64,000 nucleotides of DNA from an uncultured Candidatus Entotheonella sp. (GTDB lineage Bacteria; Tectomicrobia; Entotheonellia; Entotheonellales; Entotheonellaceae), in contig OX639990.1 of assembly GCA_951828535.1 (NCBI GenBank), forward strand, positions 3,149,300-3,213,299. Direction: 5' to 3'. The notes below the pieces were generated by a model. That model saw only the letters and a list, made by a program, of their open reading frames with translations, had not been told where the DNA came from and searched no databases. The position numbers and the translations under genes were made by a program. Below, in pieces: positions 22,283 through 40,116 of this stretch; the first letter of the stretch is position 1; every line of letters starts with the position of its first letter.

Positions 22283-22503
22283 AGGGCTTTCTGGAAGGCT
22301 GTCAATGGGCACTACATCTTCTGATAGTCGCCCTGTACGTGTCTTGCTGGTGGATCGCAGTGAAAGCCGGGAGAGGCAGTGGTGCGATGGGGATTCTGCT
22401 CCTCTTCCACGCGTTATTACTCTGTCGAACAGCCGGAAATGGGCTGTTGGAGTATCGCCGTGAGTACAGTCATCGTTGCCGAGAAACCGAGCGTCGGGCG
22501 TGA
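22279..22503 (+). CDS. Small membrane protein
   Basis: A 74-residue frame with two hydrophobic stretches (ALHLLIVALYVSCWWIAV and MGILLLFHALLLC). The ATG overlaps the transglycosylase stop (ATGA), which supports translation by coupling. The last 44 bp overlap the start of topB in another frame. No homologue recognised; it could be non-functional. Confidence 0.45.
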   Translation: MKGFLEGCQWALHLLIVALYVSCWWIAVKAGRGSGAMGILLLFHALLLCRTAGNGLLEYRREYSHRCRETERRA

Positions 22504-24580
22504 GATCGCCGGCGTTCTGGGCGCCGGGGTGAAGCGGGACGGTTACTTTCAGACGAAAGACGGAAAGCGTGTCGTGACCTGGGCGTTCGGTCACCTGGTG
22601 CGCTACGCCGAACCGCATGAGTACGGCGAAGCCTGGTCGGGAAGGTGGAATCTTGAGGATCTGCCGATGGTACCGGAAACCTGGCTATTCAAGGTGCACG
22701 AGGAGTCGGCGCAGCAGTTCAAGACCGTCAGGCAGCTGATGAACCGGGCGGAGCGGGTCATCTGTGCCACGGACGCCGGGCGAGAAGGGGAACACATCTT
22801 CCGGCTGATCTACCAGCGGGCCAACTGCACGGCGCCGGTTCAGCGGTTGTGGGTGTCGAGCCTGACGGAGGAGGCGCTGAAAAACGGATTCCGGAACCTG
22901 AAACCGGGCAGCGAATTCGACCGGTTGGGCGAGGCGGCACAGGCGCGCGCCAAGGCCGACTGGCTGGTGGGGTTCAACCTGACGCGGGCCTACTCGGCGA
23001 AGCACAGGACAAAGTTGAGCGTCGGCCGGGTGCAGACGCCGACACTCGCGCTGGTGGTCGAGCGCGACCACCGCATCCAGACCTTCGCGCCTTCTCACTA
23101 CTACGAAGTAGTGGCGCACCTGGCACCGGGATTCGACGCCGTGTACGCCCGTGCCGGCGATCCGGACGACAAGGGACGTGTTCCCTGGGTGCGTCGCATA
23201 GAGGACCGCAGAGAAGCCGAGGCGATCGCAACGGCCGCCGACCGGCAGCCTGGGCTGGTGGACGACGTGGACATCCGCACGGTACGGCGTCGGCCGCCGG
23301 CGTTGTTCGACCTGACGGAACTGCAACGCCAAGCCAACGAACACTTCGGCAGGACGGCGGCTCAGACCCTGGAAGCGGCGCAGTCGCTCTACGAGGCCAA
23401 GGTGATTACCTATCCCCGCACGGAGTGCCGCTACTTGCCCGAAGACATGCGGCCGCAGCTGGCGGGGCTGCTGGCAGTGGTGCCTCACCCTCACGCCGCT
23501 TTGGCACTCGACCACCTGAAACGCGGGCGCGGCAGGGAGCCCGGAAAAGGTTACATCGACAGCACGAAGCTGACGGATCATCACGCCATCATCCCGACGA
23601 AAGAACCCGTTCCGGAATCAATCGCGCGAGACGACAGGCTTGGTCAGTTGTACGCGCTGATCGTCAGACGATTCGTGGCGATCTTCTTCCCTGACGAGGT
23701 CATCGAAGAGACGAAGGTACGCCTGAATATAGGGGGCCATGTGTTCCAGGCTGGCGGCCGTCGCCCAATACAGGAAGGCTGGCGGGCCGCCGAACCCAGG
23801 CGCCAAGAAGAGGCGGGCGACGCAGCGGGCGACGTGGAACTGCCGGCGCTGCATACCGGGCAGTCAATCGAGGTACGGTCGCTGGAGGTGGTGGAGAAGG
23901 CATCCGGCCCGCCGAAGCGCTACACCGACGCCACGCTGCTGGGGGCCATGAAGAACGCTGGGCGCACCATCGACGACGAGGCGCAGGCGGACGTGCTCAA
24001 GGAAGCGGGCGGCCTCGGCACACCGGCCACGCGGGCGGCCATTATCGAGGTTTTAGTGAAACGCGGGTATGTGCTGCGCAAGGGCAAGACGGTGTTGTCG
24101 ACCGAGAAAGGCCGGGCGCTGATCGCGGTGGTGTCAGCGCCGCTGCGGAGCGCCGAGCTCACGGCCCAATGGGAGCGCGAGTTGAGGGAGATCGAGGCGG
24201 GCAATGGCACGGCGGCGGGTTTCCTTGCGGGCATCACGGCGCTGGTGCGCGAGCTGCTGCCACTTGTCCGGGAATCTTCCGCACGGGTGCCCGGAATCAG
24301 AGGCCAGGGAAAGACGATCGGTCCCTGTCCGTCGTGCGGCAAGGGAGTGGTCGAAAGCGGCAAGGCATTCGGCTGCAGCGCCTGGCGGGAAACGGGATGT
24401 GGTTTCAAGGTCTGGAAGGTGATGAGCGGCAAGAAGCTGAGTGTCGCCCAGGTGAGGGCTCTGTTGAAGAACGGTCATACGGACCTGATCAGAGGGTTCA
24501 AGTCGAGGGCTGGTAACCCCTTTCAGGCATCGCTGAAGCTGGATGAGCGCAACGGCGTGGTGTTCGACTTCGGAGACTAG
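22460..24580 (+). CDS. topB: DNA topoisomerase III (ICE-borne type IA topoisomerase)
   Basis: A 706-residue type IA topoisomerase. The TOPRIM domain starts with VIVAEKPSVGREIA and continues with CATDAGREGEHIFRLIY near residue 104. The catalytic tyrosine is about Tyr318 in VITYPRTECRYLP. The C-terminus has a four-Cys zinc ribbon (CPSCGKGVVESG, then FGCSAWRETGCGF, near 622-650). It relaxes or decatenates single-stranded regions and is a standard gene of PFGI-1/ICEclc elements. GTG at 22460 after GGAG gives the canonical N-terminus; longer frames upstream have no family similarity. Confidence 0.93.
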   Translation: MSTVIVAEKPSVGREIAGVLGAGVKRDGYFQTKDGKRVVTWAFGHLVRYAEPHEYGEAWSGRWNLEDLPMVPETWLFKVHEESAQQFKTVRQLMNRAERVICATDAGREGEHIFRLIYQRANCTAPVQRLWVSSLTEEALKNGFRNLKPGSEFDRLGEAAQARAKADWLVGFNLTRAYSAKHRTKLSVGRVQTPTLALVVERDHRIQTFAPSHYYEVVAHLAPGFDAVYARAGDPDDKGRVPWVRRIEDRREAEAIATAADRQPGLVDDVDIRTVRRRPPALFDLTELQRQANEHFGRTAAQTLEAAQSLYEAKVITYPRTECRYLPEDMRPQLAGLLAVVPHPHAALALDHLKRGRGREPGKGYIDSTKLTDHHAIIPTKEPVPESIARDDRLGQLYALIVRRFVAIFFPDEVIEETKVRLNIGGHVFQAGGRRPIQEGWRAAEPRRQEEAGDAAGDVELPALHTGQSIEVRSLEVVEKASGPPKRYTDATLLGAMKNAGRTIDDEAQADVLKEAGGLGTPATRAAIIEVLVKRGYVLRKGKTVLSTEKGRALIAVVSAPLRSAELTAQWERELREIEAGNGTAAGFLAGITALVRELLPLVRESSARVPGIRGQGKTIGPCPSCGKGVVESGKAFGCSAWRETGCGFKVWKVMSGKKLSVAQVRALLKNGHTDLIRGFKSRAGNPFQASLKLDERNGVVFDFGD

Positions 24581-25719: not shown

Positions 25720-26334
25720 ATGGCGGTTGACTGGGGAGAGATCGTGACCGGGTTTCAGGGCGCGCTGCAGGACTTGGGTGATTTGCTTTGGGTCCAGCTG
25801 AATGGCATGGAACCCTGGGTGCTGGTGCCGGTCTGCCTGTTCTGCGGCGCATGGGTGGTGCAGTTCCTGGATAGGTTGAGCCAATTTGCGCTGTTCGGCT
25901 GGCTTCGCCTGCTGCGCCGCCTGTGGCTTCTGGGCTTCAGCGGCTGGTGCGTCTTTCCCGGCTGCGGCATGCGCATAAAGGCAAGGCATCGGCTTTGCTA
26001 CAACCATTTCCTCGCGGCCTCGCGCTACGAGTGGGAGCACCGCGATGGCTGGGGCAGGAAGGACAGGCAGGTAAACGCCTTCTACGTCTACGTTCTGGAG
26101 CTTGATGGCGGAAAGGCTCTGTACGCCGGACAGACGCGAAACCTGATGCGTCGGATGCAGGAACACTGCGAGGGAACAACGAAGACGACACGAGGCCGGC
26201 GTCCGGTGCTGGCGTGGTTCGAGCAGATGGCTTCACGCCAGGCGGCGGTAGAGAAGGAAGCGGACCTGAAGCACCGGATCGACACGCAGCCGGACGGGGT
26301 AAGGCGGATGGTGTCGGTGTTTCGGAATCGGTAG
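25720..26334 (+). CDS. Membrane-anchored GIY-YIG nuclease-like protein
   Basis: A 204-residue protein with two hydrophobic helices (about 33-50 and 55-73), a small Cys/His cluster (CVFPGCGMRIKARHRLCYNH, 77-96), and a C-terminal GIY-YIG domain: FYVYVL (121-126), LYAGQTRNLMRRM (134-146) and a distal Glu (Glu178 or Glu180). The motif Tyr124 and Tyr135-Ala-Gly137 replaces GIY-YIG, and Arg140 fits the catalytic Arg. A nuclease domain tied to the inner membrane beside the transfer channel is unusual. Activity is unproven. Confidence 0.65.
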   Translation: MAVDWGEIVTGFQGALQDLGDLLWVQLNGMEPWVLVPVCLFCGAWVVQFLDRLSQFALFGWLRLLRRLWLLGFSGWCVFPGCGMRIKARHRLCYNHFLAASRYEWEHRDGWGRKDRQVNAFYVYVLELDGGKALYAGQTRNLMRRMQEHCEGTTKTTRGRRPVLAWFEQMASRQAAVEKEADLKHRIDTQPDGVRRMVSVFRNR

Positions 26335-33181: not shown

Positions 33182-33490
33182 ATGGCTGATGAGTTCGTTC
33201 GGATCGGACAGTTTGAGGAATTCTCCACTCGCATGAGTGGGAGTTTCCAGAGTGTCGAAAAGCGGATGGACCAAGGGTTTGCTCACGCCGAAAAGGCGAG
33301 GGAAAACATCCTTGTTCATGTAAATCAACGTTTCGATAGCGTTAATCAACGCTTCGATGGCGTCAATCAACGCATTGACGACCTCAAGGATAGCTTGGAC
33401 AAACGGTGGTCTTTCCAGAGCAGGTTTGTCGTCGGGATGTTCCTGATGATGTTAGCGGCTATGGTGAAGTATCTGTTTTTCGCAAGCTGA
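33182..33490 (+). CDS. Coiled-coil protein with C-terminal membrane anchor
   Basis: A 102-residue protein. The middle is a heptad-like repeat of VNQRFD units (VNQRFDSVNQRFDGVNQRID), and the C-terminus (VVGMFLMMLAAMVKYLFF) is one membrane helix. Such small tail-anchored coiled coils are common on mobile elements; function unknown. GAAAGGAAACCGGCCT precedes the ATG. Confidence 0.65.
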   Translation: MADEFVRIGQFEEFSTRMSGSFQSVEKRMDQGFAHAEKARENILVHVNQRFDSVNQRFDGVNQRIDDLKDSLDKRWSFQSRFVVGMFLMMLAAMVKYLFFAS

Positions 33491-33510
33491 TCGAAGCGTA
33501 ACTGTTTTCA

Positions 33511-33588
33511 GGGCCTCCAGCCCTGTCCACTTCTTTGCAGAGTGGACCGGGGCGGACGCCAACCGGTCTGCTCTGCTGGAGCAGGCCG
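33511..33588 (+). ncRNA. Structured leader, copy A (ahead of the ArdC-like gene)
   Basis: First of five related leaders. GGG...CCC, then GTCCACT/AGTGGAC (33525-33531 with 33541-33547), then ACCGG/CCGGT, then CTGCT/AGCAG, which encloses the GGAG ribosome-binding site. The ATG follows at 33589. Confidence 0.7.
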
Positions 33589-34572
33589 ATGAAAAGAACC
33601 TCCGGGCACCGCAACAGTGCAGGAAACAGGGTGACCGTTTACGAGCGGGTCACCGAACAGGTCACGGAGCTTCTGTCGCAGGGTGTCGTCCCTTGGCAGA
33701 AACCCTGGCAGGCGAAGGTCGGACCGCCTCGCAATGGGGTGTCCGGTCGCTACTACCGCGGCCTCAATGTTTTCATGTTGAGTCACGCGGGGTTTGAATC
33801 TCCCTGGTGGTTTTCGCCCAAACAGGTCAACGACCTCGGCGGGCATATCATCAAGGGTGAGAAAGTGAGTTGGGTACACTTCTTCAAGCCTTGGCTTCCG
33901 AAGAGCGATCCCGGCAACCCGCTGGAAGTCGAAACCGAACAGGTTGAGATTTCCACCCGCCGCCCGATCTTGATCATCCGGGCATACAAGGTCGTCAACC
34001 TGGACCAGTGTGAAGGGCCAGGCGTCGACAAATTCCGCGCAAAGCATCCCCCGGTCGAAGGGCCGGTGAACAACGACAACGATCCGATCGCCGCGTGCGA
34101 GGAGGTCGTGTCGAACATGCCGCAACGTCCGGGTATCCGGTACGGTGGCGACAAGGCGTTTTTTCGGCCGTGGACGGACACCGTTCACATGCCGAGGCGC
34201 AGCGCGTTCATCTCTTCCGAAGCCTTTTACGGCACCCTGTTTCATGAACTGTGTCACTCGACCGGGCATGAGGACAGGCTGAATCGGAAGACGTTGACGG
34301 ACGGGACACCGTTCGGGAGTCCGACTTACAGCCGCGAGGAGCTGGTTGCCGAAATGGGCGCCGCATTCCTTTGCGCAATGGCAGGAATCGAAGATCCAAC
34401 GATTCAGAATTCAGCCTCCTATATCCACAGTTGGCTGAGGTTCCTCAAGTCCGATCCGAAGGCTCTGATCACCGCCGGCGCCCAGGCGCAAAAGGCGAGT
34501 GACTTCATCCTGGGATGGGCTGGAGTCGAACAGGCCCTGGCACCCGCCGAAATGGCGGAGGCAGCGGCTTGA
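33589..34572 (+). CDS. ArdC-like antirestriction protein (ssDNA-binding + zincin)
   Basis: A 327-residue protein. The N-terminal ArdC domain shows VTEQVTELLSQGVVPWQKPW and GRYYRGLNVFMLS. The C-terminal zincin-like metallopeptidase domain has HELCHSTGHEDR (HExxH at about 219-223), with a distal Glu in SREELVAEMGAA. ArdC proteins bind single-stranded DNA and protect incoming plasmids from restriction. It is headed by structured leader copy A, so it may be expressed early after transfer. Confidence 0.88.
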   Translation: MKRTSGHRNSAGNRVTVYERVTEQVTELLSQGVVPWQKPWQAKVGPPRNGVSGRYYRGLNVFMLSHAGFESPWWFSPKQVNDLGGHIIKGEKVSWVHFFKPWLPKSDPGNPLEVETEQVEISTRRPILIIRAYKVVNLDQCEGPGVDKFRAKHPPVEGPVNNDNDPIAACEEVVSNMPQRPGIRYGGDKAFFRPWTDTVHMPRRSAFISSEAFYGTLFHELCHSTGHEDRLNRKTLTDGTPFGSPTYSREELVAEMGAAFLCAMAGIEDPTIQNSASYIHSWLRFLKSDPKALITAGAQAQKASDFILGWAGVEQALAPAEMAEAAA

Positions 34573-34580
34573 ACTGAACA

Positions 34581-34668
34581 CGGGGCACTGTCCCCGTCCA
34601 CTTGCTTGACGAGTGGACCGGGGGCATACGCCTGGCCGGTCCGCTCTGTCCTTCATAAGGAGAGAGCC
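34581..34668 (+). ncRNA. Structured leader, copy B
   Basis: CGGGG/CCCCG, then GTCCACT/AGTGGAC, then ACCGG/CCGGT with CGCTCTG after it, then TCCTT/AAGGA, which encloses the ribosome-binding site AAGGAG. The ATG follows at 34669. Confidence 0.7.
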
Positions 34669-35142
34669 ATGTTGAGGACCATCGTTGTGAGTATCAGCAA
34701 TTTCGTCTGCCGGATTCTGGAACCCTTCCGCTCGGACTATGCGGGCTGCGGCTGCGTGTGTTGCGAAGACGCGCGGTACGACCTGCGGAAATACGAGGCC
34801 GACGTGGAAGCGGGTCTGCACGACTTCGAGCTGGACGAAAACGGTGATCCGTTGGCCGACAGCCTGGGAATTCATCTGGACAAGTTGGACAACGGACGTT
34901 GCGGTTGTGACCGCCCACGGTGGAACGTTCGCCCCTGTGGACATTGCGCCTGCGAATGCGAGTGCGATGACTGCCCTGCGAACAAGCTGTGGCGGGACCA
35001 GCAGGAGTCCTGGTGTGGTTGTGCCAGGCCAGGAAACGAGGGCGTCCTTGAGTGCGGGCACTGTGCCTGTGGTTATGGATGCCATGAGGTCGTCAGGAAC
35101 GGGTCTGATGCACCAATGCAGAAGGTTCCCTGTGTTGCCTGA
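34669..35142 (+). CDS. Cysteine-rich hypothetical protein
   Basis: A 157-residue acidic protein with about 19 cysteines in clusters: GCGCVCCEDARYDLR (near 25), RCGCDRPRW (near 77), CGHCACECECDDCPA (near 90), WCGCARP and ECGHCACGYGCHE (near 115-137). The spacing suggests metal binding. The segments CGHCAC occur twice, so the C-terminal half may be a duplication. No named family recognised. It is headed by leader copy B. Confidence 0.65.
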   Translation: MLRTIVVSISNFVCRILEPFRSDYAGCGCVCCEDARYDLRKYEADVEAGLHDFELDENGDPLADSLGIHLDKLDNGRCGCDRPRWNVRPCGHCACECECDDCPANKLWRDQQESWCGCARPGNEGVLECGHCACGYGCHEVVRNGSDAPMQKVPCVA

Positions 35143-35151
35143 CAAATTACT

Positions 35152-35232
35152 GGGGGTATGGCCCCTGTCCACTTGTTGGCGGAGTGGACCGGGGGTTTGC
35201 CCAACCGGTTCGCTCTTCCTGAAGGAACAGGC
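35152..35232 (+). ncRNA. Structured leader, copy C
   Basis: GGGG/CCCC, then GTCCACT/AGTGGAC, then ACCGG/CCGGT, then TTCCT/AGGAA, which encloses the AAGGA ribosome-binding site. The ATG follows at 35233. The last stem has a different sequence from the other copies but still pairs. Confidence 0.7.
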
Positions 35233-35469
35233 ATGAGCGTGCATTACCACCTGAAGCGCTGGCGGTTCGACAATCCCGAGGTCGTGGACACGGGTGAAGC
35301 ATTCGTTGTCCAGGCTGAGGCGCTGTTTCGGCAGCGGCAGCTTCAGGCGATAAGTACCCGGAACCACTTCTACGTGGAACCGTGTCACCGCGAGACGTGC
35401 CGGCTGCAAGCCGCGCACGTTGTTCGCAGGAACGGGACGCATCCGCAGAGGGTGTCCGTCCAGGATTGA
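35233..35469 (+). CDS. Small hypothetical protein
   Basis: A 78-residue protein starting MSVHYHLKRWRF and containing GEAFVVQAEALFRQRQLQAI and two Cys (CHRETC). It has no recognised domain. The start is fixed by leader copy C and its ribosome-binding hairpin. Confidence 0.6.
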   Translation: MSVHYHLKRWRFDNPEVVDTGEAFVVQAEALFRQRQLQAISTRNHFYVEPCHRETCRLQAAHVVRRNGTHPQRVSVQD

Positions 35470-35474
35470 TGAAT

Positions 35475-35561
35475 GGGGCCTGTGTCCCCGTCCACTGTAA
35501 CGCCGAGTGGACCGGGGGCCTTGCCCAGCCGGTCCGCTCTGCAGACGAAAGGAGCGGACAA
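35475..35561 (+). ncRNA. Structured leader, copy D (ahead of the clamp gene)
   Basis: GGGG/CCCC, then GTCCACT/AGTGGAC, then ACCGG/CCGGT, then GTCCGCTC (pairs exactly with GAGCGGAC), so the last hairpin holds the AAAGGAG ribosome-binding site in an 8-bp stem. The ATG of exon 1 follows at 35562. Confidence 0.72.
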
Positions 35562-35651
35562 ATGGAGATCATCCTTAACAGGGATCAAGCAATGAAAGCT
35601 GTCGACGTGGCAAGGAAATTCGCGGCAAGCGCCTCGGGGCTCAAAGTCCTG
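35562..35651 (+). CDS. dnaN: Sliding clamp (DnaN-like), exon 1 of 2
   Basis: Thirty codons, MEIILNRDQAMKAVDVARKF and on, matching the first helix-strand of beta clamps. It ends with the codon CTG just before the intron's GTGCG. Joined to 38004-39053 it gives a 379-residue clamp in which the TDLE motif falls at residues 47-50, the same position as in E. coli DnaN as I recall it. Without splicing the frame ends nine codons into the intron (stop at 35679). The symbol is by family; this is an ICE-borne paralogue rather than the host gene. Confidence 0.7.
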
Positions 35652-36231
35652 GTGCGACCTGAAGTCGCATTCGATGAGTGATTCCCGCAAGGAATCCCGG
35701 CCAGTGTGTAGGCCGGTCGTCAATCCCACATGCGTTGCTGGTAACGGCAAGGTGTGAAGCTGGGATGAAACGCCTAATGGGAACGGTAGCCATCACCAAA
35801 CCCAGGGCAAGGCGAAGGCCGGCATGGTGAACGAGAGTGAACCTTCGCTGGAAGCGTCGTCATGAGCAGCCACCGAAATGATGGATGACACGATGGTCAC
35901 GAGCCACATGTGAATACGAGGATTAGGACCCTCGTCACGCACACCATAGGCTCCGGCGCAGAGAAGGCACCTAACCCGGTCGTTTCTCACGGATGTGGAA
36001 CAGGGAAACCCCGATGAGGTCTGGCCTTCTGGCCAGTAACCCGACCGCAAGGAAGGGCCAATTCCTCAGCGGGAATAGGAGGTCGCAAGAAGCGAATGCC
36101 GACCGCCGAAAGGCAAGGGGAATCCATAACCCGTCGGATAGGGCTTATACCCAACCCGAAAGGGTGCTGACGTGCGACTGGTGAACCGGCCATAGGCCGC
36201 AGCGAGAGTTACTCATCTTGGGAGATGTTAG

Positions 36232-37944
36232 ATGCAACGGGAAACCGCTGTAAACAGAGCCAAGACGCCTGCTTCATGGAACGACATCAACTGGTGTCGC
36301 AACCGGAAGTTGGTGCGTAATTTGAGGCAGCGAATCTATAGGGCCTCACGGCAGGGAGACCACAAGAAGTTACGGTCCCTGCAACGTCTCATGTTGAAAA
36401 GCCGAGCCAACCGGGAACTCAGTATCCGGCAAGTGACGCAGGTCAACAAGGGACGACTGACTGCCGGCGTGGACAAGCTGGTGGTGAAAACGCCGCAAGG
36501 CAGGACGAGGCTGGTGGAGGAAGTTAGTCAATACCAGCCTTGGAAGGCCAAACCGGCAAGGCGGGTGTACATCCCAAAGGCCAATGGTAAGCAAAGGCCG
36601 CTCGGCATTCCAACGGTGCTTGACCGCTGCATGCAGGCCATCGTGAAGAATGCGCTGGAGCCCGAATGGGAAGCTCTCTTTGAGCCAGGCTCATATGGGT
36701 TCCGACCAGGTCGAGGCTGCCACGACGCCATAGAACGCATCTATGCATTGTCCATACCCAAAACCAGAAAGAAATGGGTGGTAGATGCAGACATCAAAGG
36801 AGCCTTCGACAACATCCGGCATGCAACCATTTTGGAGGCATTAGCCGGCTTCCCTGCCCGAAACCTCGTAAGACAATGGTTGAAGGCGGGGGTTGTTGAC
36901 AGGGGTGTGTTTGCGGAAACGACAGCAGGCACACCACAAGGCGGTGTTGTCAGTCCACTGTTGGCGAACATCGCCCTTCATGGCATGGAATCGGCGGTAG
37001 GCGTCTCGTATTGGAAAGATGGGGACTCCTACAAGATTAATAGCACCCGCGCACTGGTTCGGTACGCCGACGACTTCGTGATATTCGCCGAAACACGCGA
37101 GGACGCGGAAGCGGCCAAATCGGACATTGCGCGGTGGCTCGCGGGCCGAGGACTGGAACTCTCTCAAGAGAAAACCAGGATTCGGCACCTTACGGAGGGA
37201 TTCAACTTCCTGGGGTTCAACGTGCGCCAATACCCCGTCTCGAACACTCGGACGGGGTACAAGCTACTGATCAGGCCAAGCAAAGAGTCGGTTTCGGACT
37301 TTAAGCACCGCATGAAACGGGAATGGTCGGCTCTTGTCGGCCACAACGTAGACGCGGTGCTCGCGAGGCTGCGACCTATTCTTCGGGGATGGGTGAACTA
37401 CTACCGTACTGTAACCTCAAAGGAGACGTTCAATGGTCTTGACTATTGGATGCTCTCCCGCGAAATCAGATGGTGCAAACGCACCCACTCCAACAAGTCA
37501 TGGAACTGGATCAACCGGACCTACTTCGGTAGCTCTCGGGTCAGGCGTCAAGACAAATGGGTGTTTGGACACCCCAAAACGGGGAATCACCTGCCCAAAC
37601 TGTCATGGACGCCCATCAAGCGGCACATCATGGTCCGCTACGATGCGTCGCCAGATGATCCAGACCTGCGCTCCTACTGGGCATGGCGGGAGGCCAAGAA
37701 AGCGGTCCTTCTCCCAACTTGGCGGCAAAAGGAACTGGCTACACGACAGAGCGGGCATTGCCCAATCTGCCAAGACAGCCTGCACAACGATGAGGAACTT
37801 CACGTTCATCACGTCATTCCTAAGTCACAGGGCGGGGAGGACGCAATCTCCAACCTTGCGCTAGTACATCTCTACTGCCATCAGCAAGTACATACCGGTG
37901 GAAAGGTGACGGTGAAACCGGTTTGCTTGAGCCGTGTGCGGTGA
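36232..37944 (+). CDS. ltrA: Group II intron reverse transcriptase/maturase (LtrA type)
   Basis: A 570-residue intron-encoded protein. The RT domain shows VYIPKANGKQRPLGIPT, ADIKGAFDNI, GTPQGGVVSPLLANI and the catalytic RYADD (near 276-280). The maturase X region has LRGWVNYYR. A C-terminal HNH endonuclease domain holds CPICQDSLHNDEELHVHHVI and then HLYCHQQVH. The protein helps splicing and drives retrohoming. All catalytic motifs are present, so the intron may still be mobile. GGGAGATGTTAG precedes the ATG. Confidence 0.95.
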   Translation: MQRETAVNRAKTPASWNDINWCRNRKLVRNLRQRIYRASRQGDHKKLRSLQRLMLKSRANRELSIRQVTQVNKGRLTAGVDKLVVKTPQGRTRLVEEVSQYQPWKAKPARRVYIPKANGKQRPLGIPTVLDRCMQAIVKNALEPEWEALFEPGSYGFRPGRGCHDAIERIYALSIPKTRKKWVVDADIKGAFDNIRHATILEALAGFPARNLVRQWLKAGVVDRGVFAETTAGTPQGGVVSPLLANIALHGMESAVGVSYWKDGDSYKINSTRALVRYADDFVIFAETREDAEAAKSDIARWLAGRGLELSQEKTRIRHLTEGFNFLGFNVRQYPVSNTRTGYKLLIRPSKESVSDFKHRMKREWSALVGHNVDAVLARLRPILRGWVNYYRTVTSKETFNGLDYWMLSREIRWCKRTHSNKSWNWINRTYFGSSRVRRQDKWVFGHPKTGNHLPKLSWTPIKRHIMVRYDASPDDPDLRSYWAWREAKKAVLLPTWRQKELATRQSGHCPICQDSLHNDEELHVHHVIPKSQGGEDAISNLALVHLYCHQQVHTGGKVTVKPVCLSRVR

Positions 37945-37962
37945 AAGTCGCAAGCACGGTTC
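37929..37962 (+). ncRNA. Group II intron domain V
   Basis: The 34-nt hairpin starts GAGCCGTGTGCGGTGAAAGT and ends GCACGGTTC, the canonical catalytic domain V with its GAAA tetraloop-like cap and AGC-type catalytic triad region. Domain VI follows to 38003. It overlaps the last codons of the maturase gene. Confidence 0.88.
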
Positions 37963-38003
37963 TTAGGGGGGGGAGTTGCAGCGATGCGACTTCCCTACCC
38001 GAC

Positions 38004-39053
38004 CAAGGCGCTTTCTTGTCCGCGGGGTTCGGCCGCGTAAGGCTGACGACAACCGACCTGGAGCTGTGGTGCCAGGTCGAGATCGATGCCCAGACGCCGA
38101 AGCCGGGCAAGGCACTGATGCCGGTACGGGGTCTGGGAACTGTGTTGAAGAACATGCCGCTTAGCCACGTGGAGCTCCGCAGTGCGGGGGACGACGTGGT
38201 GTGCGAGGCGGCTTCTTCGGAGGTGCGCCTGGCCGGGATCGATCCGGACGAATACCCGGACATCGAGGAACCGGAAGGGTGCTTGATGTCGATGCCGTTG
38301 GCGGCCGCCCTGGTTGACAAGGTGGCTTACGCGGCGAGTCGAGACGAGACGCGGTACACGCTTAACGGTGTGCTTTTGGAAGTGGAGGGCCGGCAACTGA
38401 AGCTGGTCGGCACTGACGGGCACCGTCTGGCGCGTTTCGCGGGCAAGCTGCCTCCAGGCAGTGAGTGTGACGGCGGGGAGGAGCCGGTCAAGGCTATCGT
38501 CCCGGTGCGTCTACTTCAAGAAGGCGTGCGACTGGGCGGCAAGCTCGGTGGCTCGGTGACGTTCGAGCTCTACGAGAAGGCCGCCGGAATCCGGATCAAC
38601 GGGTCCGTCCGCATGTGGAGCAAGTTGATCGAGGGTCAGTACCCGGCATACGAAGAGGCTATTCCCTCGGAGTTCGCGGGTACGGTATCGGTGCCGAAAG
38701 GCGCCTTGTGCAGTGCTGTGTCGCGGTTGGCTGCCCTGTCAAAGGGCCGCCGGCAAGCAGGCGTGGCGCTATGTGTGGAGGATTCTCGGTTGGTGCTTCG
38801 TCTCGATGCGGATGCCGAAGGTGGCATCTCTGCGGTCGAGCGTCTGTCGCCGGCGAGGATCCAGGGAACGGTGCCGGTCTGCGGCCTGCGGATAAGCTAC
38901 CTGTCCGACGCCCTTGCGCGTTTGCCTGATGTCTCGATGGTCGACGTCAAGTTCTCGGACGACAAGGGCTGTAGCCCGGTGGCGATTCAGGGCCCGGAGA
39001 CATCCGGCGCCGGATTGTTGGCGGTGATCATGTCGTACGAGTTTTCGGCGTGA
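38004..39053 (+). CDS. dnaN: Sliding clamp (DnaN-like), exon 2 of 2
   Basis: Continues exon 1 in the same codon phase. It reads QGAFLSAGFGRVRLTTTDLE, then clamp hallmarks GTDGHRLA and VRMWSKLIEGQYPAYEEAIP, and ends MSYEFSA. The full spliced protein is 379 residues, close to the usual 366. The beta clamp tethers polymerases to DNA. A clamp on an ICE suggests self-directed replication or clamp-dependent DNA repair. An in-frame start before the exon exists only inside intron sequence, so this half alone is unlikely to be the real product. Confidence 0.82.
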   Translation, partial: QGAFLSAGFGRVRLTTTDLELWCQVEIDAQTPKPGKALMPVRGLGTVLKNMPLSHVELRSAGDDVVCEAASSEVRLAGIDPDEYPDIEEPEGCLMSMPLAAALVDKVAYAASRDETRYTLNGVLLEVEGRQLKLVGTDGHRLARFAGKLPPGSECDGGEEPVKAIVPVRLLQEGVRLGGKLGGSVTFELYEKAAGIRINGSVRMWSKLIEGQYPAYEEAIPSEFAGTVSVPKGALCSAVSRLAALSKGRRQAGVALCVEDSRLVLRLDADAEGGISAVERLSPARIQGTVPVCGLRISYLSDALARLPDVSMVDVKFSDDKGCSPVAIQGPETSGAGLLAVIMSYEFSA

Positions 39054-39059
39054 TCTGAC

Positions 39060-39141
39060 GGGGGCAAACCTCCCGTCCGCTTTTCTTGGCGGACCGGGGG
39101 GAATTGCCCTGCCGGTCCGCTCTGATGCAAGGAGCGGAGCG
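39060..39141 (+). ncRNA. Structured leader, copy E
   Basis: Here stem 2 is GTCCGC/GCGGAC instead of GTCCACT/AGTGGAC, so both sides changed together. ACCGG/CCGGT is kept. TCCGCTC/GAGCGGA encloses the AAGGAG ribosome-binding site. The ATG follows at 39142. Confidence 0.72.
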
Positions 39142-39399
39142 ATGAGTGAAGAAGGTATCTGTGTTGGCTGTGGTCGTGATTGCCTCGACACCATCGAGTG
39201 CAATTGCACCCAGGAGATCGGCGCATGCGAGGAATGCCGGGAATCCGACATCAACCTGGTATGCGGCACTTGCCGCGACCGGGCAGTACGGGTGGTTCCT
39301 GTGGGTGCTTTTCCGTGCTGGGGCTTCATGGACGACGAAGCCGGCGTGGAACGGGACCTGGGGGGACGCTTGCCCGTGACCGCTCCGGTCGGGGCGTGA
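39142..39399 (+). CDS. Cysteine-rich small protein
   Basis: An 85-residue protein with ten cysteines: EGICVGCGRDCLDTIECNC, then GACEECRES and VCGTCRDRA, which look like two zinc-binding knuckles. It is headed by leader copy E. No named family recognised. It follows the clamp gene by 88 bp. Confidence 0.6.
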   Translation: MSEEGICVGCGRDCLDTIECNCTQEIGACEECRESDINLVCGTCRDRAVRVVPVGAFPCWGFMDDEAGVERDLGGRLPVTAPVGA

Positions 39400-40116
39400 G
39401 GACCGCCGTACCGTGCTCTGTGACGGTATGGACTTTGCCGGGCCGGGTATCCCTGGCTCGCAGATGTGCTGCGCCGCGTCCAGCGGCGCTTACCTCCCCT
39501 GCGCCTTCCCAAAGGCGTGACACGCGGCGTTCAGCAGCGCTGCATTGCGGGTGCCGCAAGGCACCCCTGGCGTCGTCCAGACGCCGGCATTCCCGGCGCC
39601 CCGTCCAGGGGCGCAAGCAAGGCGGCGGCGTCCAGCCGCAACGCCTGGCGGTACGGCGCGAAAGCGTCGTCACTACCGTCGAGCTTGCGAGACTAGGTAG
39701 TGACGACGCTCTACGTCGTAGGACTGACAACCCGGAAACCCGCTCACTACGTGGGGTTTCGCAGTCCGGCGCTCGAAGGAGGAAAAGTGCCGGGAAGTGC
39801 CAGACGGCGAAAACGCAATTTTTTTCGCGCTCGGCAAAAGAGATAGACCCCGATGTTCGACCTTGTTTGCAAGGCGGAATCGGATGCCCGGTTAGCGGGG
39901 CAAGGGGCCATTTCGCTATGCGAGACTGAGGCTGCTTCAAGCATCCCAGTGGCGCCCATACGCTAACCACCCTCGGAAAATCGTAGCTTGGAAACGGACG
40001 TCATGGGTGCGCCTGGTTGTTGGGTACACGGCCTTGCGCAGGCGGCCGTATCGTGCAGACGCCTTGCCGGATGGGCAACGCCGCGCCGCGAGGCCAGGCA
40101 AAGTGAGGAAGGGCGT
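39400..40116. other. 717-bp non-coding region dense in inverted repeats
   Basis: No supported gene is present. Perfect hairpins are GGGTGCC/GGCACCC (39549-39566, GCAA loop), GGCGTC/GACGCC (39569-39585) and a 14-bp stem GCGTCGTCACTACC/GGTAGTGACGACGC (39664-39677 with 39696-39709). Such density suits an origin of transfer, a replication origin or a structured RNA. Which one cannot be told from the sequence alone. A ribosome-binding site GAGGAAGGGCGT leads into the next gene. Confidence 0.5.

Follow-up and report, generated by a model that had tools for sequence, protein, structure and literature searches.

Repeated two-fold RNA leaders as candidate translation gates in a conjugative element of Candidatus Entotheonella

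A 64,000-nucleotide (nt) stretch of contig OX639990.1, from the genome of an uncultured Candidatus Entotheonella sp. (hereafter, the whole stretch is called the window), contains an integrative conjugative element (ICE) in which five genes of one operon are each preceded by a structured leader of about 85 nt. The leader is a real, conserved, and as yet uncatalogued cis-acting RNA; most likely it gates translation, and it probably does so by means of two competing folds. The claim that the leaders control translation at the RNA level is the firmest part of this reading, and we consider it likely. With somewhat less assurance, we favor the view that both folds are in use; to a similar degree, we favor regarding the leaders as a new family of intercistronic two-fold translation gates that are OFF by default.

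The genes behind the leaders are ardC, a Cys-rich gene (cysA), a 78-amino-acid (aa) gene, a DnaN-type sliding clamp gene, and a second Cys-rich gene (cysB). Each leader opens with a G-run just past the upstream stop codon and extends to the downstream start codon. The original prediction had placed five blocks with a shared layout at these sites; inspection of the sequence confirmed their coordinates, and the copies align over their full length, with 37 of 92 columns invariant. A covariance model built from the five copies scores 74-85 bits on those same copies. The next match in rank across the 3.6-Mb genome reaches 18 bits and lies on the reverse strand of one copy; thus, no sixth copy was found elsewhere in this genome by covariance-model search. 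Four of the five copies fold better than all of 200 dinucleotide shuffles (z -3.8 to -5.5), and fold energies of -48 kcal/mol or lower are reached by only 0.3% of the 88-nt stretches of the window. The result is less strong for the copy at 35152 (z -2.6, with 3 of 200 shuffles equally good).

Nine further copies were detected ahead of orthologous genes in three related elements, bringing the total to 14 copies in four elements. A same-genus genome, again from an uncultured Candidatus Entotheonella (OY282375.1, here L015), carries four leaders, located ahead of ardC, cysA, the clamp gene, and cysB. Three copies lie on a 3.3-kb contig of RHO2_bin_76 (L022), one precedes an apparent ardC start on a second contig of that bin (L031), and one lies on a contig of CO36386bin_20 (L024); the contigs of both bins are short and possibly mis-binned, leaving the hosts uncertain. 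Between elements, the operon's proteins share 48-77% identity, gene order is conserved across the related operons, and the non-coding leaders are roughly as conserved as the adjoining coding DNA. All 14 copies end at a start codon and hold the Shine-Dalgarno (SD) sequence within the last of four pairing segments. Beyond the four genomes, no leader was found in the plasmids, phages, and IMG/VR loci examined (searched with leader DNA and with the ArdC, clamp, and Cys-rich proteins) or in about 840 genomes searched; the genome model searches extended over 386 relatives, over the class and family to which the RHO2 bin belongs, and over the order that includes the CO36386 bin, and the large ones used stricter filters under which weak matches may be lost. 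ArdC relatives are common, and those in IMG/VR lack such a leader.

The leader can adopt two predicted structures. In the first, termed the OFF fold, the 5' arm is engaged in a GGGC/GCCC stem, segments 1 and 2 form a helix (CCCCGUCCACU/AGUGGACCGGGG), and segments 3 and 4 form a hairpin that holds the SD sequence. In the second, termed the ON fold, the stem of the 5' arm is GGGG/CCCC, and the helix is made by segments 2 and 3 (GAGUGGACCGG/CCGGUCCGCUC). The original prediction had listed four stems as parts of one layout. Each of these is indeed present, but they cannot form jointly and are split between the alternative folds: GGGG/CCCC is in competition with two stems, GGGC/GCCC and CCCC/GGGG, as is the full ACCGG/CCGGT helix with GTCCACT/AGTGGAC and the SD stem. 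The compensatory changes that had been noted were borne out, the A-U pair of GUCCAC/GUGGAC being replaced by G-C in the copy at 39060, and the last stem varying between copies yet still pairing, every time around the SD sequence.

Both folds have left traces in the alignment of the 14 copies. The OFF fold is paired in 92.5% of cells, and 10 of its pairs are changed on both sides, compared with 4.0 +/- 1.2 in shuffles, although the alignment was fitted to this fold and its counts are therefore favored. Pairing of segments 2 and 3 (2:3) holds in 96.4% of cells. Changes in segment 3 nearly always preserve it, even in the four copies in which the SD stem (3:4) has been rearranged and rebuilt, namely those ahead of cysA in the window, L022, and L015 and the one ahead of the 78-aa gene in the window. 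The GGGG/CCCC stem, which belongs to the ON fold only, occurs in all 14 copies with 4-6 pairs each, and A-U stands in for G-C in the ardC copy of the window and the cysA copy of L015. Tree-aware redraws, in which the number and place of changes were kept and the new letters redrawn, gave p=0.0015 for the 1:2 helix, p=0.006 for 2:3, and p=0.027 for 3:4. The covariation expected of a structured RNA is thus seen in the aggregate tests; in an R-scape-like test, no single base pair was significant (best E=0.067), a set of 14 related sequences having little power at the level of single pairs.

Wobble pairs reveal which strand folds. Wobble cells on the sense strand are exclusively G.U and never A.C, in ratios of 32:0 in helix 1:2 and 27:0 in helix 2:3 (59 cells), and every such G.U becomes a C.A mismatch on the opposite strand. 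It follows that the sense RNA folds, rather than the template strand. In each of the five window copies, moreover, the sense strand folds better than its opposite, with a margin of 1.6 to 11.5 kcal/mol. Conservation is concentrated in the helices and the SD sequence; riboswitch-type conserved unpaired letters are absent, the columns unpaired in both folds being variable in the 14-copy alignment. A search for intrinsic terminators with a U run returned one terminator-like site, overlapping copy 5 only, and the count for the region did not exceed that of shuffles. Together, occlusion of the SD sequence, the sense-strand wobbles, and the presence of the same leaders before orthologues in three other elements support the proposal, made in the original prediction, of an RNA element that controls translation of the five genes.

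Folding computations, whose energies are model values at 37 C without proteins, bear on how such control might work. The OFF fold is the energy minimum in 14 of 14 copies, lying 0.7 to 13 kcal/mol below the fold in which 2:3 is forced, and in almost all copies, most of the SD sequence is base-paired in the stable fold; in copy 3 of the window (35152), the two folds are almost equal in energy. With the stretch from the SD sequence to the ATG kept unpaired, to imitate a bound ribosome, the 2:3 helix becomes dominant, together with the GGGG/CCCC hairpin, in 11 of 14 copies. As a control, OFF-fold base pairs were shuffled among their own positions, after which the most stable alternative fold was computed anew. 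The natural alternative is 6-18 kcal/mol better than those of the OFF-preserving shuffles, with a mean z of -3.3 when all pairs are permuted and -3.8 when permutation is confined to helices (weakest value -1.7, cysB of L015). Blocking of the first 12 nt causes 2:3 to exceed 1:2 in 13 of 14 copies, and a 24-nt block exposes the SD sequence in nine of the 14.

In the mechanism that we propose, the operon would be transcribed as one RNA, on which the leaders would decide gene by gene whether ribosomes start. By default, the 5' arm would be paired as GGGC/GCCC and segments 1:2 and 3:4 would be closed, burying the SD sequence. A ribosome leaving the upstream gene would push aside the first third of the leader, at its 5' end, and so shift the RNA to the ON state, wherein the 5' arm would pair as GGGG/CCCC and segment 2 would take segment 3, depriving the SD sequence of its partner. 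Repeated two-fold switches of this kind could allow one signal, either ribosome passage or an element protein, to open the early genes one by one from one transcript, a scheme to which we give slightly less than even credence. The upstream ribosome is our first-ranked but tentative candidate for the opener, with control by a protein close behind. An upstream open reading frame (ORF) ends 4-21 nt ahead of the leader in 13 of 14 copies, according to ORF tables, and stop-to-start distances in the window are 88-98 nt; the leaders thereby combine a short stop-to-start distance with an inhibitory structure at the downstream SD sequence, as coupled gene pairs do.

Several observations weigh against this two-fold, ribosome-opened gate. 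No clear choice of the ON fold is made by the cysB copies of L015 and the window or the cysA copy of L022 when the SD sequence is held open, and the 12-nt block leaves the SD sequence mostly paired, now with segment 1. A ribosome halted at a stop codon should cover only about ten nucleotides beyond it; the 24 nt needed to expose the SD sequence exceed this expected cover, so the ribosome would have to advance or a protein would have to help. No ORF of 20 aa or longer terminates in the 60 nt ahead of the ardC leader on L031 of RHO2_bin_76. Coupling fails to account for this copy, which favors a trans-acting factor at least there. Segments 1 and 3 resemble each other, as do segments 2 and 4, and some of the cross-pairing could thus stem from an old hairpin duplication. 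Furthermore, 2:3 covaries little in simple column shuffles, its support deriving from tolerated wobbles and energies, and the lack of any individually significant pair counts on the same side.

Two alternatives accept the leader as RNA. In the first, the leader would be an operator for an RNA-binding protein encoded by the element (a Cys-rich protein, SSB, ArdC, or the clamp), which would bind every leader and set the five genes jointly, much as ribosomal proteins regulate their own operons. The use of one leader type on five genes of a single operon, the invariant letters of the helices, and the ardC leader on L031 that lacks an upstream ORF all suit such an operator, and a protein bound to the 5' third would mimic the computed 5' block. 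However, no conserved single-stranded letters exist outside the helices and the SD sequence, and no candidate regulator is singled out, the Cys-rich proteins matching no family and yielding unusable AlphaFold models (pLDDT 34-36 for both); we regard an operator as possible, though on balance unlikely. Slightly less probable, in our estimate, are static inhibitory hairpins, in which case the OFF fold alone would matter, lowering or coupling translation, and 2:3 would be a by-product of similar hairpins. The OFF minimum in every copy and the slight covariation of 2:3 in simple shuffles are in keeping with that notion; it fits poorly with the retention of 2:3 in copies with a rearranged 3:4 stem, the outcome of the redraws for this helix, the energies of the alternative fold relative to shuffles, and the universal presence of the ON-only GGGG/CCCC stem.

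The remaining alternatives are far less probable. Single-stranded-DNA promoters of the Frpo kind, which the original prediction had raised as an alternative, would be active on the transferred strand just after conjugation. Leading regions can contain several promoters of this type (PMC11541004), and the leaders resemble Frpo/ssi sequences in being structured, in occurring several times, and in preceding genes suited to a leading region; these genes are of early type (ardC, the clamp gene, near ssb) and lie beside a candidate origin-of-transfer or attachment region. In such a promoter, the template strand must fold, and sense-strand folding therefore counts against it: on the minus strand, the 32 and 27 G.U cells become mismatches. 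Between 31900 and 40200, moreover, a consensus scan of the plus strand returned no -35/-10-like site (one was found on the minus strand, outside the leaders), and the structure extends to the SD sequence and start codon, leaving no space for a leader past a promoter hairpin. Such promoters are accordingly disfavored and, in our judgment, improbable. Even less credence is due to a mobile or cassette-joining repeat, such as a REP-like palindrome or an attC-like site, folded as single-stranded DNA. The leaders do share an intergenic position, a common orientation, and a sense-strand fold; they are nevertheless confined to this operon within the genome, in a gene order that is conserved rather than shuffled, and they always end in an SD sequence and start codon. 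The core of attC is RYYYAAC/GTTRRRY, and none was visible by eye in the aligned copies.

Comparison with catalogued RNAs places the leader apart. The radC motif is found ahead of genes of mobile elements, and the original prediction had suggested that the leaders could belong to it. Like the leader, this motif is a likely cis-regulatory RNA, in its case of Proteobacteria (PMC2864571). Its model (RF01754) has 149 positions, compared with 87 for the leader, and the leader differs in its placement between genes and its occurrence in up to five copies per operon. No Rfam family matched the leaders at gathering level in the window, and none, RF01754 included, matched at E<=10 over 33400-35700, which holds four copies, or at E<=5 in L022 and L024. 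An RF01754 search of 21 genomes likewise gave no match, although no control genome matched either, so this search was weak. With no match at any threshold used, membership in the radC family is not supported, and we consider it very improbable indeed. A leader of this kind was not found described in the papers examined on radC, ArdC leaders, or Entotheonella ICEs.

The closest parallels lie in systems of translational control. Attenuators of the erm type comprise four segments, in which pairings 1:2 and 3:4 exclude 2:3 and the SD sequence resides in segment 4. The leader resembles them, on the evidence of its predicted folds and their conservation, in the alternative pairings around its SD sequence. 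It differs in that its 5' arm has two alternative partners, in its many copies per operon, and in that no leader peptide was identified inside it, short peptides there not having been searched for systematically. In the rpmI-rplT pair of Escherichia coli, coupling acts over an inhibitory structure that hides the downstream ribosome-binding site, +52 nt past the stop codon (PMC12548453). Here too, an intergenic structure occludes a downstream SD sequence tens of nucleotides past an upstream stop; in contrast to rpmI-rplT, the leader is a dedicated, conserved, two-fold structure repeated at successive junctions over its longer stop-to-start spans, and coupling is here a tentative proposal.

The host of the window belongs to a GTDB phylum of five genomes. 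Its ICE encodes an F-type secretion system, represented by TraC, TrbI, and TraG, by weaker matches to TraK, TraH, and TraU, and by a TraD/TraG-type coupling protein, in addition to a topoisomerase, SSB, the ArdC-like protein, and an integrase. The stretch 22379-24580 codes for a member of the type I topoisomerase family, and 25720-26334 for a protein with a GIY-YIG domain. The ArdC-like product combines an ArdC N-terminal domain with a zincin-like metallopeptidase domain, and in a relative (G002), a gene similar in size and position to the 102-aa gene of the window lies ahead of the ardC leader. The clamp gene also matches PF00712 and PF02768, with the domain evidence coming from its second exon; the start codon right behind the fourth leader is that of the first exon. 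Interruption of this gene by a group II intron is supported by the uninterrupted clamp orthologue in L015. The outer ends of the intron are approximate, having been taken from Rfam matches at 35696-35784 and 37927-38003, and its reverse transcriptase ORF spans 36232-37944 (570 aa). A related group II intron occupies 702-3009 of L024, within the 3' part of ardC and hence in another gene of the same operon. The products of cysA and cysB have no match in Pfam or NCBIfam. No counterpart of the 78-aa gene, which has a leader of its own, was seen in the related operons, suggesting that this leader-plus-gene unit was gained or lost.

Two further regions deserve mention. Between the last leader gene and the integrase, the block at 39460-39710 contains short hairpins with a CGTCCAG loop (39473, 39598, and 39625) and a perfect 15-bp inverted repeat (39663-39677/39696-39710); it is largely conserved in the Entotheonella relative and is a candidate origin of transfer or attachment site. 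Beside the integrase of OY282375.1, translations of L015:1-3300 show a regular repeat (LITPHGDWK/LPLMGIGN), and this stretch looks like a CRISPR array adjoining the element end.

Table 1. Positions of the leaders, their pairing segments, and the associated genes in the window (SD, Shine-Dalgarno sequence; z, fold energy against dinucleotide shuffles).
Feature	Position	Strand	Score or remark
Leader copy 1 (ardC)	33510..33591, to ATG at 33589	+	82.5 bits (cmsearch); z -5.5
Copy 1 parts	5' arm 33510-33515; segment 1 33525-33532; segment 2 33540-33550; segment 3 33563-33574; segment 4 with SD 33578-33587	+	
Leader copy 2 (157-aa Cys-rich gene)	34581..34671, to ATG at 34669	+	73.8 bits; z -4.2
Copy 2 parts	segment 1 34596-34603; segment 2 34611-34621; segment 3 34636-34647; segment 4 with SD 34657-34667	+	
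Leader copy 3 (78-aa gene)	35152..35235, to ATG at 35233	+	75.8 bits; z -2.6
Copy 3 parts	segment 1 35167-35174; segment 2 35182-35192; segment 3 35205-35216; segment 4 with SD 35223-35232	+	
Leader copy 4 (clamp gene)	35475..35564, to ATG at 35562	+	84.9 bits; z -3.8
Copy 4 parts	segment 1 35490-35497; segment 2 35505-35515; segment 3 35529-35540; segment 4 with SD 35550-35560	+	
Leader copy 5 (85-aa Cys-rich gene)	39060..39144, to ATG at 39142	+	84.4 bits; z -5.2
Copy 5 parts	segment 1 39075-39082 (GTCCGCTT); segment 2 39087-39097 (TGGCGGACCGG); segment 3 39112-39123; segment 4 with SD 39130-39140	+	
102-aa gene	33182..33490	+	stop codon 19 nt ahead of copy 1
ardC-like gene, behind copy 1	33589..34572	+	Pfam PF08401 8.7e-24, PF18818 1.7e-37
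cysA, Cys-rich 157-aa gene, behind copy 2	34669..35142	+	
78-aa gene, behind copy 3	35233..35469	+	
DnaN-type sliding clamp gene, group II intron inside, behind copy 4	35562..39053	+	PF02767 3.4e-18
Group II intron in clamp gene	35696..38003	+	RF02012, RF00029 above gathering score
cysB, Cys-rich 85-aa gene, behind copy 5	39142..39399	+	

As a rule, descriptions of structured leaders give one for each transcript. In the present case, uncultured sponge symbionts harbor a conjugative element that repeats one type of two-fold leader ahead of as many as five genes, among them those for an anti-restriction protein and for a sliding clamp of the element itself. Provided that the switch is real, it would offer a compact means to silence early genes while the element resides in the chromosome and then to release them jointly or in order. 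The 14 natural variants constitute a defined set for testing how selection keeps two competing folds, and the sense-strand wobble test provides a simple way to tell, in other leading regions, whether a structure is an RNA leader or a single-stranded-DNA promoter.

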